NCBI RefSeq assembly: GCF_001310085.1
Contig: NZ_CP012643.1
Location: 3,455,501-3,519,500 of the forward strand
Source: Rufibacter tibetensis
Lineage (GTDB): Bacteria > Bacteroidota > Bacteroidia > Cytophagales > Hymenobacteraceae
Length of the DNA stretch: 64,000 nucleotides
Reading direction: 5' to 3'
Shown: piece after piece, positions 59,926-62,965 of the stretch
How positions within the stretch are numbered: position 1 is the stretch's first letter
Layout: every line of letters starts with the position of its first letter
Translations under genes and position numbers: made by a program
Notes under the pieces: model-generated
Told to the model about the DNA's origin: nothing
What the model saw: only the letters and a program-made list of their open reading frames with translations
The model's database searches: none

Positions 59926-61149
59926 CTACGGTACTATTTCAAAATAGCCGCGCTTGCCAATTCTCACCTTCACCGGACTTTTGCCTAACTCCACTGAGTC
60001 CTGGGCATCTGTAACTTTAGTGCCATTTACGGTGACGCTTCCGGCTTCAATAAGCTTTTTGAGGTTAGACCGGCTTTCCCCGGCTTTCAATTCCTTGCAT
60101 AGGTCCAACACCCGTAGAGTACCCGTTTGGTCAAGACTTAGCGAGCTGAGGGAAACGCTGGTGAACTCCTTTTCCTCAAACCGCTTGTTTTGAAACTGGT
60201 TCTGGAAAAACTCCTGGGCTTGTTCTGCAGCCTCAGTTGAATGGTATTGTTGAACTACGTTCAATCCAATCCTCTTTTTGAGAACCATCGGGTTATCGCC
60301 TTGCTCCAGTTGCTGAAGCAGTTGCTGCTTTTCTTCCGGGGTGAAATCCGTGACCAAGTGCAGGTACTCCGCCAAAAGGGCATCTGGAATGGACATGATC
60401 TTCCCGAACATCTCGTTAGGTGCATCGGTAAGGCCTACAATGTTTCCTTCAGACTTACTCATCTTCGCTGACCCGTCAATGCCTTTTAGCAGCGGCATAC
60501 AAAGTACTGCCTGGCCATGCTGTCCCTGTCCTTCCTGCAGCTGACGGCCCATGGAACAGTTGAACAACTGATCGGTGCCACCCATTTCAATATCGGCGTG
60601 AATCATGACAGAATCATGCCCTTGCAGAAGCGGGTACACCAACTCGTGCAGGGAAATAGGCAGGCTACCTGAGAAACGGTTGTTAAAATCAGTGCGCTGC
60701 ATGATTTGGGCCAGGGTCACCTGCGAGAGGAGCTTGATGGTTTCGGTCATGTCCATGCTGCCCAGCCACTCAGAGTTGTAGCGGATCTCGCACTTGCTGA
60801 CGTCCAGAATCTTGGACAACTGGTTCACGTAGGTCTGGGCGTTGAGTTGAACCTGATCGGCATTCAAGGGCGGGCGCGATTTGTTTTTGCCGGTAGGGTC
60901 ACCAATGCGGGCTGTGAAATCCCCGATGATGATGACAATGGTGTGCCCAAAATCCTGGAACTGGCGCAATTTCTTCAACACCACCGCGTGCCCCAGGTGC
61001 AGGTCTGGTGCGGTAGGGTCAAAGCCTAGTTTGATAATGAGGGTACGGTTTTCTTTTTCGGCGAGCTGTAGCTTTTCTTCCAGCGCATTATCTGGGAGGA
61101 AGATCTCTACGTTTGCTTTCAGTACATTCAATTGTTCTGCTGCTTTCAT
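59926..61149 (-). CDS. tyrS: Tyrosine--tRNA ligase (TyrS, type with S4 domain)
   Basis: I chose the ATG at 61149 (MKAAEQLNVLKANVEIFLPD) over a GTG 48 bp upstream. The 407-residue class I enzyme carries the signatures HLGH (51-54) in IKLGFDPTAPDLHLGHAVVL and KMSKS (229-233) in the mobile loop, with the tRNA-binding S4-like domain at the end (from about 345; SRSNLKKLIEAGSVTVNGTK). It charges tRNA-Tyr for protein synthesis. Upstream are a Tyr-rich short frame and a terminator-like hairpin, so expression is probably controlled by tyrosine supply. It ends at a strong hairpin. Confidence 0.97.
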   Translation of the reverse strand: MKAAEQLNVLKANVEIFLPDNALEEKLQLAEKENRTLIIKLGFDPTAPDLHLGHAVVLKKLRQFQDFGHTIVIIIGDFTARIGDPTGKNKSRPPLNADQVQLNAQTYVNQLSKILDVSKCEIRYNSEWLGSMDMTETIKLLSQVTLAQIMQRTDFNNRFSGSLPISLHELVYPLLQGHDSVMIHADIEMGGTDQLFNCSMGRQLQEGQGQHGQAVLCMPLLKGIDGSAKMSKSEGNIVGLTDAPNEMFGKIMSIPDALLAEYLHLVTDFTPEEKQQLLQQLEQGDNPMVLKKRIGLNVVQQYHSTEAAEQAQEFFQNQFQNKRFEEKEFTSVSLSSLSLDQTGTLRVLDLCKELKAGESRSNLKKLIEAGSVTVNGTKVTDAQDSVELGKSPVKVRIGKRGYFEIVP

Positions 61150-61220
61150 GCTTAATGATTGATTAATTGAAGAGTTGGATTTGCTTTGAAAAAGCACAGG
61201 CAGGACCGGGCAGAAAACAA

Positions 61221-61250
61221 AGAAGCCCAGGTCCGTGAACCAGGGCTTCT
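61221..61250 (-). terminator. Attenuator hairpin in the tyrS leader
   Basis: On the minus strand AGAAGCCC (from 61250) pairs with GGGCTTCT (ending 61221). A T-T mismatch and three more pairs lead to a 6-nt loop, and TTTGTTTT-like sequence follows directly (61214-61220). It lies 71 bp before the tyrS ATG and 26 bp after the stop codon of the Tyr-rich leader frame. In shape it is an intrinsic terminator placed inside the 5' leader. Confidence 0.75.
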
Positions 61251-61275
61251 GTATGATGGGTTTATTTTGTACCGA

Positions 61276-61362
61276 TCAACTATAGCAATCCCAGGCTACG
61301 GCCATTGGGTAATAGGTAGAGTAGGCTGAGTAAGGATAAAAGGATTGCTGATGAAGGGTCAT
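61276..61362 (-). CDS. Tyrosine-rich leader peptide of tyrS
   Basis: The 28-codon frame from ATG 61362 to TGA 61276-61278 encodes a peptide with tyrosine at positions 9, 11, 14, 17, 18 and 27 (6 of 28 residues; the core reads FYPYSAYSTYYP). It begins about 14 nt after the predicted transcription start and ends 26 nt before the terminator hairpin. Such enrichment in the residue charged by the downstream synthetase is the mark of a leader peptide in transcription attenuation. Ribosomes stalling at Tyr codons when tRNA-Tyr is poorly charged would let an antiterminator form. The peptide itself probably has no function. Confidence 0.7.
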   Translation of the reverse strand: MTLHQQSFYPYSAYSTYYPMAVAWDCYS

Positions 61363-61382: not shown

Positions 61383-61414
61383 CAAAGGAAAGAACTCTTT
61401 TTTTAACCTCCAAA
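61383..61414 (-). promoter_or_regulatory. Candidate promoter of the tyrS leader
   Basis: On the minus strand TTTG (61411-61414) and TTCCTTTG (61383-61390) are separated by 20 bp, close to the Bacteroidota -33 (TTTG) and -7 (TAnnTTTG) elements with normal spacing. The start of transcription would fall near 61376, leaving a leader of about 225 nt before the tyrS ATG. Confidence 0.55.
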
Positions 61415-61571: not shown

Positions 61572-61823
61572 TTAGGCTAAGAACACTTTGATCAAGGCTA
61601 TGGCAGTTATTAAAAGCCAGATAGAATTCAACACCCAACTGGCGTACGCTTTCTTTGACACGCCGTAGAGAATCAGTAAAAAGCAGCCTATCACGTTCAT
61701 CAGCAAATATTCCATAGATTGGCTGCTAATCACGTTGAGGCTGTTCAAACTGAACGCAGTAAGTGAAAAGAAGGCGCCCGCCCACCCAATGGCTTCTCGT
61801 AAATATTTCTGTAAGGACAACAT
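61572..61823 (-). CDS. Small three-span membrane protein (CBU_0592-like)
   Basis: I chose the ATG at 61823 (MLSLQKYLREAIGWAGAFFS). The long frame that continues to 62198 runs through the LysR gene on the other strand and is not supported. The 83-residue protein has three hydrophobic segments (about 11-30, 39-55, 65-82). The pattern EAIGWAGAFFSLTAFSLNSL, then LLMNVIGCFLLILYGVSKKA, matches small CBU_0592-type membrane proteins of unknown function. It is divergent from the LysR gene, the normal arrangement for a LysR target, but this link is inference. Confidence 0.7.
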   Translation of the reverse strand: MLSLQKYLREAIGWAGAFFSLTAFSLNSLNVISSQSMEYLLMNVIGCFLLILYGVSKKAYASWVLNSIWLLITAIALIKVFLA

Positions 61824-61914: not shown

Positions 61915-62823
61915 GTGGACTTACAGCAAATAAAGTATTTTTTGGCCCTTGCAGAGGAGTTGCATTTCTGGAATACCTCCGAAAAAATGTTCATTACGCA
62001 ATCGGCGTAAAGCCGGCAAATCAAGGCGCTGGAAGAGGAGTTAGGCGTACAGCTATTTGAGCGGAGCAAGCGCAGCGTGAAACTCACCGAGGCCGGGGCT
62101 TTCCTGCGTGACCGCTGGCTTCCTTTAGTGGAGGAAATTAACCGCACGCACCGGCAGGCCCGCAAAATACACGAAGGCGCCTTCGGGTCTATCAGCATTG
62201 GGTACCCTGGCTCGGTGGCCTATACCTTTCTGCCCGAAGTGGTCTCAAAGATTGCTCAAACCTTGCCTGAGCTGAAAGTAGAACTGGTAGAACCCACTGA
62301 CATCAGTTTTGAAGAATTGTTGCTGAACTTCCAGATGGATCTGGCCATCCGGCGCGACCCTGCCGAGAATCCTGCGCTGCTTTCTTTGTGCCTGTACTCA
62401 GAGCCGTTCGCATTGATTGTACCCCAGAACCATCCCTTAACCGAAGAGAACTTCACCGGACTTCAGGACGTGCGCGAGGAGAAGTTTATTTTGTCTGGGC
62501 TGCACCACAGAACCTTGTATGTGAAAAGCCTACGGCAGATGTTCAAAGACAATAATTTCACCCCCAACGTGTACATTGAGTCTGACTTCGGGGCCATGAT
62601 CCTGGGTCTGGTAGGCCGCGGATTGGGAATATCAGTAATGCCTAGTTCTTATGCCTTTGGGGCACCACCTAATGTGCGGTTCATCCACCTCCCGCAGAAA
62701 GTGAACCTCTACGTGACCTGGCGGAAAGACGACACCAGCCCGGTGCTCAAGAACGTGCTGGAACTGGTGCAGCAAGTAGCACAGGAGTACAAAAACAGCA
62801 CTGGCGGGAGCTTGCTGTTCTAA
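61915..62823 (+). pseudogene. LysR family regulator broken by a stop codon in its HTH
   Basis: From a GTG at 61915 the frame reads DLQQIKYFLALAEELHFWNT, then EKMFITQSA, TAA (62008-62010) and SRQIKALEEELGVQLFERSK in the same frame. This is exactly the LysR winged helix-turn-helix with the invariant Leu codon (TTA) of TQSALSRQ turned into a stop. The rest is intact: the linker and a full substrate-binding domain up to 62823 (GSISIGYPGSVAYTFLPEVV, LVEPTDISFEELL). The part after the stop could start at ATG 62077 as a 248-residue protein without a DNA-binding domain. A single T-to-A change, or a sequencing error, would account for it. Confidence 0.85.
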
Positions 62824-62915: not shown

Positions 62916-62965
62916 GAGCCCTCCACCAACAGAGATTATAAATAATCTCTGTTGGTGGAGGGCTC
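62916..62965. terminator. Strong convergent terminator
   Basis: A perfect 23-bp stem (arms 62916-62938 and 62943-62965) with a 4-nt loop lies between the convergent LysR and SnoaL-like genes and can serve both. Confidence 0.85.

Follow-up and report, generated by a model that had tools for sequence, protein, structure and literature searches.

A conserved tyrosine-rich leader and putative transcription attenuator upstream of an auxiliary tyrosyl-tRNA synthetase gene in Bacteroidota

The tyrS2 locus and its neighborhood

The minus strand of the window (the whole 64,000-nt stretch of Rufibacter tibetensis DNA that was analyzed) carries a promoter-like site, a short tyrosine-rich ORF, a terminator-like hairpin and a tyrosyl-tRNA synthetase (TyrRS) gene, tyrS2. 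Its features, including the RNA segments (1 to 4) predicted to pair with one another, are as follows.

61383..61414, minus strand: promoter-like site of the Bacteroidota type (TTTG, 20 nt, TTCCTTTG), matching the consensus at 4/4 and 5/6 positions and ending 20 nt before the leader start
61276..61362, minus strand: leader peptide ORF of 28 codons, MTLHQQSFYPYSAYSTYYPMAVAWDCYS, with stop codon TGA
61309..61314, minus strand: tandem Tyr codons 17-18 (TAT TAC), the putative control codons common to all clades
61342..61349, minus strand: possible segment 1, AGCAATCC, uncertain; the minimum-energy folds of G000, G011 and G010 pair it with segment 2, in the 3′ half of the latter
61284..61297, minus strand: segment 2, AGCCTGGGATTGCT; its CCTGGG and the left arm of the terminator make up the predicted antiterminator, and its GGGATTGCT would pair with segment 1
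61238..61250, minus strand: segment 3, the left arm of the terminator; CCCTGG at 61245-61240 doubles as the antiterminator partner
61212..61233, minus strand: segment 4, the right arm of the terminator, plus a U-rich tail
59926..61149, minus strand: tyrS2, auxiliary tyrosyl-tRNA synthetase with a KMSKS motif and an S4 domain, 29% identical to the housekeeping TyrS1

A preliminary description of this DNA had listed a 28-codon frame with tyrosine at codons 9, 11, 14, 17, 18 and 27, a stop codon, a hairpin at 61250-61212 and then tyrS, all of which are present as described on the minus strand; codons 9, 11 and 14 come before the doublet at 17-18. Counting both strands in every frame, the window holds 737 ATG-started frames of 15-60 codons, and the leader is the only one as rich in tyrosine (at least six Tyr at such density). 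A chance Tyr-rich frame was ruled out, as only this one of the 737 frames qualifies and all 146 homologous entries (see below) carry it. The region 61375-61190 folds 4.0 standard deviations below its dinucleotide shuffles, none of 200 being equally stable. A consensus promoter and terminator scan listed neither a terminator hairpin nor a sigma-70-type promoter at the leader, and the hairpin probably escaped it on account of a U-U mismatch within the stem. In the window copy, this mismatch is found in both the terminator and the antiterminator, the segment 3 core being CCCTGG where relatives have CCCAGG.

Several other features of the neighborhood were recorded. On the plus strand, an in-frame TAA (62008-62010) breaks a LysR-family regulator gene at 61915-62823; the TAA is flanked, in the same frame, by a substrate-binding domain and by a helix-turn-helix piece that scores just below the Pfam cut-off, and the gene is either a pseudogene or the result of a sequencing error. 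A small hydrophobic ORF of 83 aa lies at 61575-61823 on the minus strand, and its C-terminal part recurs in G010, G011 and G003, where it also precedes the leader. A Pfam search returned nothing for two small neighboring ORFs, this one among them. Lastly, a perfect inverted repeat (two 24-nt arms, 2-nt loop) was seen by eye between two genes at 62916-62965 and is perhaps a bidirectional terminator.

Distribution of the second synthetase and of the leader

The TyrS2 protein of the window has an S4 domain besides its class I catalytic domain and matches the sequences of solved TyrRS enzymes. It is an accessory enzyme, with the housekeeping tyrS1 located elsewhere in the genome, because TyrS1 was found in all 26 genomes examined and the 13 of them that encode TyrS2 have both. 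The preliminary description was right in naming tyrS as the gene behind the hairpin, except that this tyrS is the auxiliary one of two in the genome and not the housekeeping copy. TyrS2 is carried by 9 of the 16 genomes of the host genus (Rufibacter, Sabulibacter), by 11 of the 204 genomes of the host family, those 9 included, and by 116 of the 173 genomes of Chryseobacterium, the genus of G431. In a sample of the class, a search for TyrS2 at E up to 1e-120 returned only the window's own genome out of 395 and no further carriers. The tyrS genes of other classes of the phylum are 41-47% identical to TyrS2, such genes also occur elsewhere, and the five read upstream (L021-L025) were without the leader.

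TyrS2 is not intact in every carrier. In G010 (L005), the tyrS2 behind an intact leader is interrupted at codon 63 by an in-frame TAG, and in G699 (contig C3, L328) an intact leader precedes a truncated tyrS2 remnant; both cases are in keeping with dispensability of TyrS2. The TyrS2 tree placed 58 of 59 proteins (L005 was left out on account of its in-frame stop) and was midpoint-rooted for drawing. A member of the host genus, G015 (L011), fell on the Weeksellaceae side of a split with 100/100 support. Its leader is also of the Weeksellaceae type, and since both placement and leader type are Weeksellaceae, enzyme and switch probably moved together.

The upstream regions of 126 TyrS2 genes were read, along with two repeats from named records (L019 = G212, L020 = G707), giving 128 entries; 18 later additions brought the total to 146 entries from 144 genomes. 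One of the 116 Chryseobacterium matches, G744, was left out because it lies at a contig end, and pieces of its leader are among the matches of the covariance model described below. A leader ORF precedes TyrS2 in all 146 entries (127 with ATG, G689 with GTG, and the 18 added later). Three forms were distinguished: the Weeksellaceae type, mostly MKHLNSILRLPFFSEYY with a variable tail; the Rufibacter type, MTLHQ(Q/L)(S/T)FY(P/K)YSAYSTY(Y/C) with minor variations; and that of Pontibacter, MTKQQHILP(Y/F)PFYNDYY. The motif [FY][SNT]xY[YCDL] occurs in 146/146 leaders. The first codon of the Tyr doublet is TAT in every one of the 146 and never TAC, whereas the second is TAC in 76, TAT in 65 and another codon in 5 (Tyr in 141/146). 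Terminators were detected in 105 of the 128 entries at the first thresholds and in 124 with relaxed ones, and in the other four they are visible by eye. The frame and the hairpin, whose absence from close relatives the preliminary description had regarded as evidence against attenuation, are both conserved.

None of the 26 tyrS1 upstream regions has the leader. A frame with YY or dense Tyr was present in nine of them, some hairpin in four, and both in three (L241, L248, L260). The same leader on tyrS1 was ruled out, as the frame of L248 and of L260 contains the hairpin and that of L241 is a long one.

The leader element was then represented by a covariance model, R1. In Chryseobacterium, R1 at E up to 0.01 matched 144 of 171 genomes, 115 of them strongly (<1e-8), and 114 of these 115 encode TyrS2, the other being G699 with its remnant. 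The search covered 171 of the 173 genomes; the carriers G685 and G698 are probably the other two, and the leader of each was identified by reading its upstream sequence. At E up to 0.01, R1 matched 28 of the 204 host-family genomes, and the 11 strong matches (<1e-7) are exactly the 11 TyrS2 carriers. In Weeksellaceae, the family of G431, R1 at E up to 1e-6 matched 35 of 178 genomes, 17 in G431's own genus and 18 in four other genera. All 18 of the latter precede a protein 56-63% identical to TyrS2, and the prediction from R1 that TyrS2 lies beside new copies of the element held. In a sample of the class, the only match at E up to 1e-4 among 174 genomes was the window's own element. Eight matches were inspected (L309, L328-L334): L328 is strong and beside the truncated tyrS2, and the other seven, all weak, are hairpins close to other genes and lack a leader of this kind. 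A search of the window with Rfam release 15 at gathering scores gave 0 matches, ruling out a known Rfam RNA.

The site upstream of the window leader includes a TTTG box, a promoter element of the Bacteroidota type. TAnnTTTG is the −7 consensus reported for a flavobacterium (PMC9723704). In 60 of the 128 entries this sequence falls in the 40 nt that precede the leader, compared with 1, 0 and 0 of 128 in three control stretches. A looser −7 box ends 4-8 nt before the start codon in 104 of the 128 entries (the gap in the window is 20 nt), so that the Weeksellaceae-type transcript would probably be nearly leaderless. No −7 box was scored in 13 of the 128 entries. The boxes and spacings of the window site recur in G011 and G010; in G014 and G212 promoter boxes were scored for and none was found. 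The preliminary description had held that a transcription start downstream of 61250 would speak against attenuation, and the predicted promoter sits upstream of the leader.

Alternative RNA structures and the predicted switch

Segment 2 starts 19-22 nt past the start of the Tyr doublet. Its core is CCTGGG in Rufibacter, TTCGGG in most Chryseobacterium, CTCGGG or CTCGGA in others and TCTGGG in Pontibacter, and the left arms of the terminators are complementary (CCCAGG, CCCGGA or CCCGAA, CCCGAG). As judged by this complementarity, segments 2 and 3 would form an antiterminator, the element that the preliminary description overlooked. Structure counts were made on 50 representatives, of which 47 were chosen at 90% identity from 120 unique leaders and three were added. 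The antiterminator (2:3) is paired in 99.1% of 350 cells, and pairing drops to 53-57% when the partner is slid by one column. Twenty cells are changed on both sides against a shuffle mean of 4.9, although related sequences may exceed shuffles without any structure. In the same 50 representatives there is no excess over shuffles in pairs with a double change (2 vs. a mean of 1.9) or in pair types (6 vs. 6.8). The compensations at the level of clades, U-A to C-G at one position of 2:3 and C-G to U-A at another, therefore weigh most, since two other measures fail against shuffles and kinship alone can beat them.

All six pairs of the antiterminator core can form in 125 of the 128 entries and five of six in the remaining three, which include the window copy. 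By plain counting, non-cognate cores also reach four to six of six pairs because G-U is allowed; by duplex energy, the own partner is stronger than the mean of the partners from other classes in 77 of 78 unique entries. The terminator is paired in 97.1% of cells of the 50 representatives, with double changes at six of nine pairs. By comparison of the sequences, the segment 2 stretch is selected as RNA, because small indels in G643, G693 and G724 shift the frame past the Tyr doublet and leave its nucleotides largely unchanged.

These data bear on whether the hairpin might simply be the terminator of the gene upstream, with the Tyr-rich frame a chance occurrence or a relic. The nearest upstream ORF on the same strand ends at 61572, and the seven weak R1 matches inspected are themselves hairpins after other genes. 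Yet the frame, the antiterminator and the promoter-like site are conserved jointly before tyrS2, the upstream gene varies between clades, and the covariation of 2:3 contradicts an upstream gene's terminator, so that we regard this explanation as scarcely credible.

The folding predictions depend on which segments are available. With the ribosome on the first codon of the doublet and segment 4 absent, the antiterminator (at least four of six pairs) appeared in all 50 predicted folds, and the sequence downstream of segment 2 alone gave the terminator in 50/50. With all segments present, the terminator won in 49 of the 50 predicted folds; since it wins once segment 4 exists, antitermination must be kinetic. 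For the window copy, placing the ribosome at Tyr 9, 17 or 18 gives the antiterminator as the minimum-energy fold, and placing it at Tyr 11 or 14 does not; in the seven relatives every Tyr tested gives the antiterminator.

The protector stem (1:2) is the weakest part of the predicted switch and is uncertain. In Weeksellaceae-type leaders, segment 1 is GTCTTCC at codons 9-11, a possible pairing partner for the 3′ half of segment 2. The stem is paired in 82.6% of cells, shows double changes at four of seven pairs, and is present in 35 of 50 full-length folds. Its predicted position is not conserved among the eight Rufibacter-type leaders: three of them, with the window copy, have the segment 1 partner at nt 14-21, and the other five have it at nt 29-45. 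Among the 42 non-Rufibacter representatives, 32 have their stop codon 17-30 nt beyond segment 2, and a ribosome at the stop may therefore not cover segment 2.

The element combines the parts of a ribosome-mediated attenuator: a conserved, Tyr-rich short ORF, an intrinsic terminator before the structural gene, a compensated antiterminator that shares a segment with the terminator, and Tyr codons at a position where, in the predicted folds, a stalled ribosome lets segment 2 pair with segment 3. From this anatomy, its conservation and covariation and its specificity for tyrS2, we infer a switch that would operate as follows. The promoter just upstream would give rise to the RNA, and a ribosome would translate the leader. 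When Tyr-tRNA is scarce, the ribosome would stall at the Tyr codons and block the part of the leader that otherwise holds segment 2, which would then pair with segment 3 before segment 4 is made; the terminator would not form and tyrS2 would be transcribed. When Tyr-tRNA is plentiful, the ribosome would proceed to the stop codon and segment 2 would be covered, or held by upstream leader RNA, allowing segments 3 and 4 to form the terminator and stop transcription.

Control might instead be exerted on translation of tyrS2 or on the stability of its mRNA, and alternative structures alone do not tell which step is controlled. The last hairpin ends in a U tract, however, and the window stem ends 71 nt before the tyrS2 start and not over it, making such control improbable. 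Taken as a whole, these comparisons argue strongly for a ribosome-mediated transcription attenuator that senses tRNA-Tyr charging and controls the auxiliary TyrRS. Attenuation of tyrS by tRNA-Tyr charging, as proposed in the preliminary description, thus gains comparative support from the conserved frame and Tyr doublet, the terminator, the covarying antiterminator, the promoter-like site just upstream, and the strong R1 matches, which occur only at tyrS2 or its remnant.

The leader peptide and comparison with known systems

In order to compare constraint on the leader with that on the enzyme, pN/pS was calculated from 48 Weeksellaceae-type genomes, using TyrS2 from its HLGH motif on; the calculation was also run on unique Weeksellaceae-type leaders (70/126). 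The ratio was 0.209 for leader codons 2-17 and 0.206 for TyrS2. At codons 12-13 (Phe-Phe), where synonymous change is saturated, it was 0.006, and at codons 18-21 and 22-25 it was 0.97 and 2.1, respectively, which agrees with selection on the segment 2 stretch as RNA, both values being inflated by indels. The preliminary description had named conserved Tyr codons, frame and hairpin in relatives, with neutral drift elsewhere, as support for attenuation; these parts are conserved, and conservation extends beyond the Tyr codons, codons 2-17 being as constrained as TyrS2. Judging from these ratios, conservation of the peptide exceeds what a simple counter of Tyr codons would need. The 1:2 stem accounts for part of the constraint on codons 9-11 and does not extend to codons 2-8 and 12-13. 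The constraint might reflect help from the nascent chain in stalling, an additional response to Phe, or a role of the peptide in its own right.

One such explanation is peptide-dependent arrest, in which the nascent chain (ILRLPFFxxYY in Weeksellaceae) would stall or slow the ribosome at the Tyr doublet and the same RNA switch would follow; the signal may then be free tyrosine, a translation inhibitor or a shortage of aromatic amino acids, instead of or besides uncharged tRNA-Tyr. The enzyme-like constraint on codons 2-17, the near absence of replacements at Phe-Phe, the release of constraint at codons 18-21 and the motif shared by all 146 leaders are consistent with arrest. Against it, the Rufibacter-type leaders have a different N-terminal half and five to seven Tyr codons, which looks like codon sensing, codons 9-11 are also part of the 1:2 stem, and indels displace codons 18 onward and raise pN there. 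We consider arrest rather unlikely. A combination of the two is a tentative possibility: the tandem Tyr codons would serve as the sensor of tRNA-Tyr charging, and the stall at the always-TAT codon would be actively promoted by the conserved nascent chain, which is ILRLPFFxxYY in Weeksellaceae and has [FY][SNT]xYY in nearly all leaders. The element would then be a peptide-assisted attenuator on an almost leaderless RNA in Weeksellaceae, serving an inducible backup TyrRS and moving between bacterial families together with its switch.

If attenuation by tRNA-Tyr charging is correct, Bacteroidota gain a tyrosine-specific attenuator before a synthetase gene, with main parts that can be read from the sequence and more than 140 natural variants. 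It would also predict when the second TyrRS, which is common in Chryseobacterium and apparently undescribed, is used. By analogy, TyrS2 is most likely a reserve enzyme for failure or inhibition of TyrS1; induction of a backup synthetase when Tyr-tRNA fails is what would be expected if the enzyme protected cells against a shortage of tyrosine or natural inhibitors of TyrRS. With the constrained leader peptide, nascent-chain help in classical attenuation would become directly testable. A search of open-license papers found no Tyr leader for tyrS in Bacteroidota and no report of the leader element.

An auxiliary, antibiotic-resistant TrpRS gene of Streptomyces coelicolor is reportedly under ribosome-mediated attenuation, in work attributed to Vecchione and Sello in 2010. 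Both it and tyrS2 would be duplicate synthetase genes for one amino acid that are controlled by an attenuator; it differs in the amino acid (Trp), in belonging to Actinobacteria and in the antibiotic resistance of the enzyme, TyrS2 being without a known inhibitor. In a comparative study, candidate attenuators were predicted for Streptomyces trpS2 and leuS, the latter with a leader peptide, antiterminator and terminator, and tyrosine operons of Actinobacteria were described as lacking conserved upstream RNA structures (PMC1262725). The genes trpS2 and leuS share with tyrS2 a predicted attenuator upstream of a synthetase gene and differ in the amino acid. The E. coli pheST leader attenuates a synthetase operon in the classical manner, in response to the amino acid that the enzyme itself uses; it differs from that of tyrS2 in responding to Phe, in serving a housekeeping enzyme and in being proteobacterial. 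The comparative study of attenuators also names pheST (PMC1262725).

Other second TyrRS genes are regulated differently. Bacillus subtilis TyrZ is a second TyrRS under charging control by a T box and also has a MarR regulator (PMC9437257, citing Williams-Wagner 2015). Its gene is like tyrS2 in encoding a second TyrRS, with charging control that for tyrS2 is predicted, and unlike tyrS2 in having a T box and a MarR regulator. A T-box RNA binds the tRNA directly, without a leader peptide. The tyrS of the Enterococcus durans tyramine cluster is an extra TyrRS-like gene, with transcription that is highest without tyrosine and also depends on pH (PMC3315439). It resembles tyrS2 as an extra TyrRS-like gene and differs in its Firmicutes host, its tyramine cluster and its pH dependence.

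Within the phylum, the Bacteroid-trp RNA is linked to trp genes. It is presented as a candidate structured RNA of Bacteroidetes (RF01692; PMC2864571). Both it and the tyrS2 leader are structured RNA candidates of Bacteroidetes; Bacteroid-trp concerns Trp, and the window has no Rfam match at gathering scores. Work on Flavobacterium psychrophilum describes signs that leader peptides attenuate amino-acid operons, as well as mRNAs for synthetases with structured 5′ regions; its section 19 names alaS among the latter and does not name tyrS (PMC9723704). Leader-like short ORFs are likewise noted for Bacteroides thetaiotaomicron (PMC7366714). Set beside these systems, the tyrS2 element has the appearance of a conserved, tyrosine-specific member of the classical attenuator class, and its predicted mechanism is itself classical.
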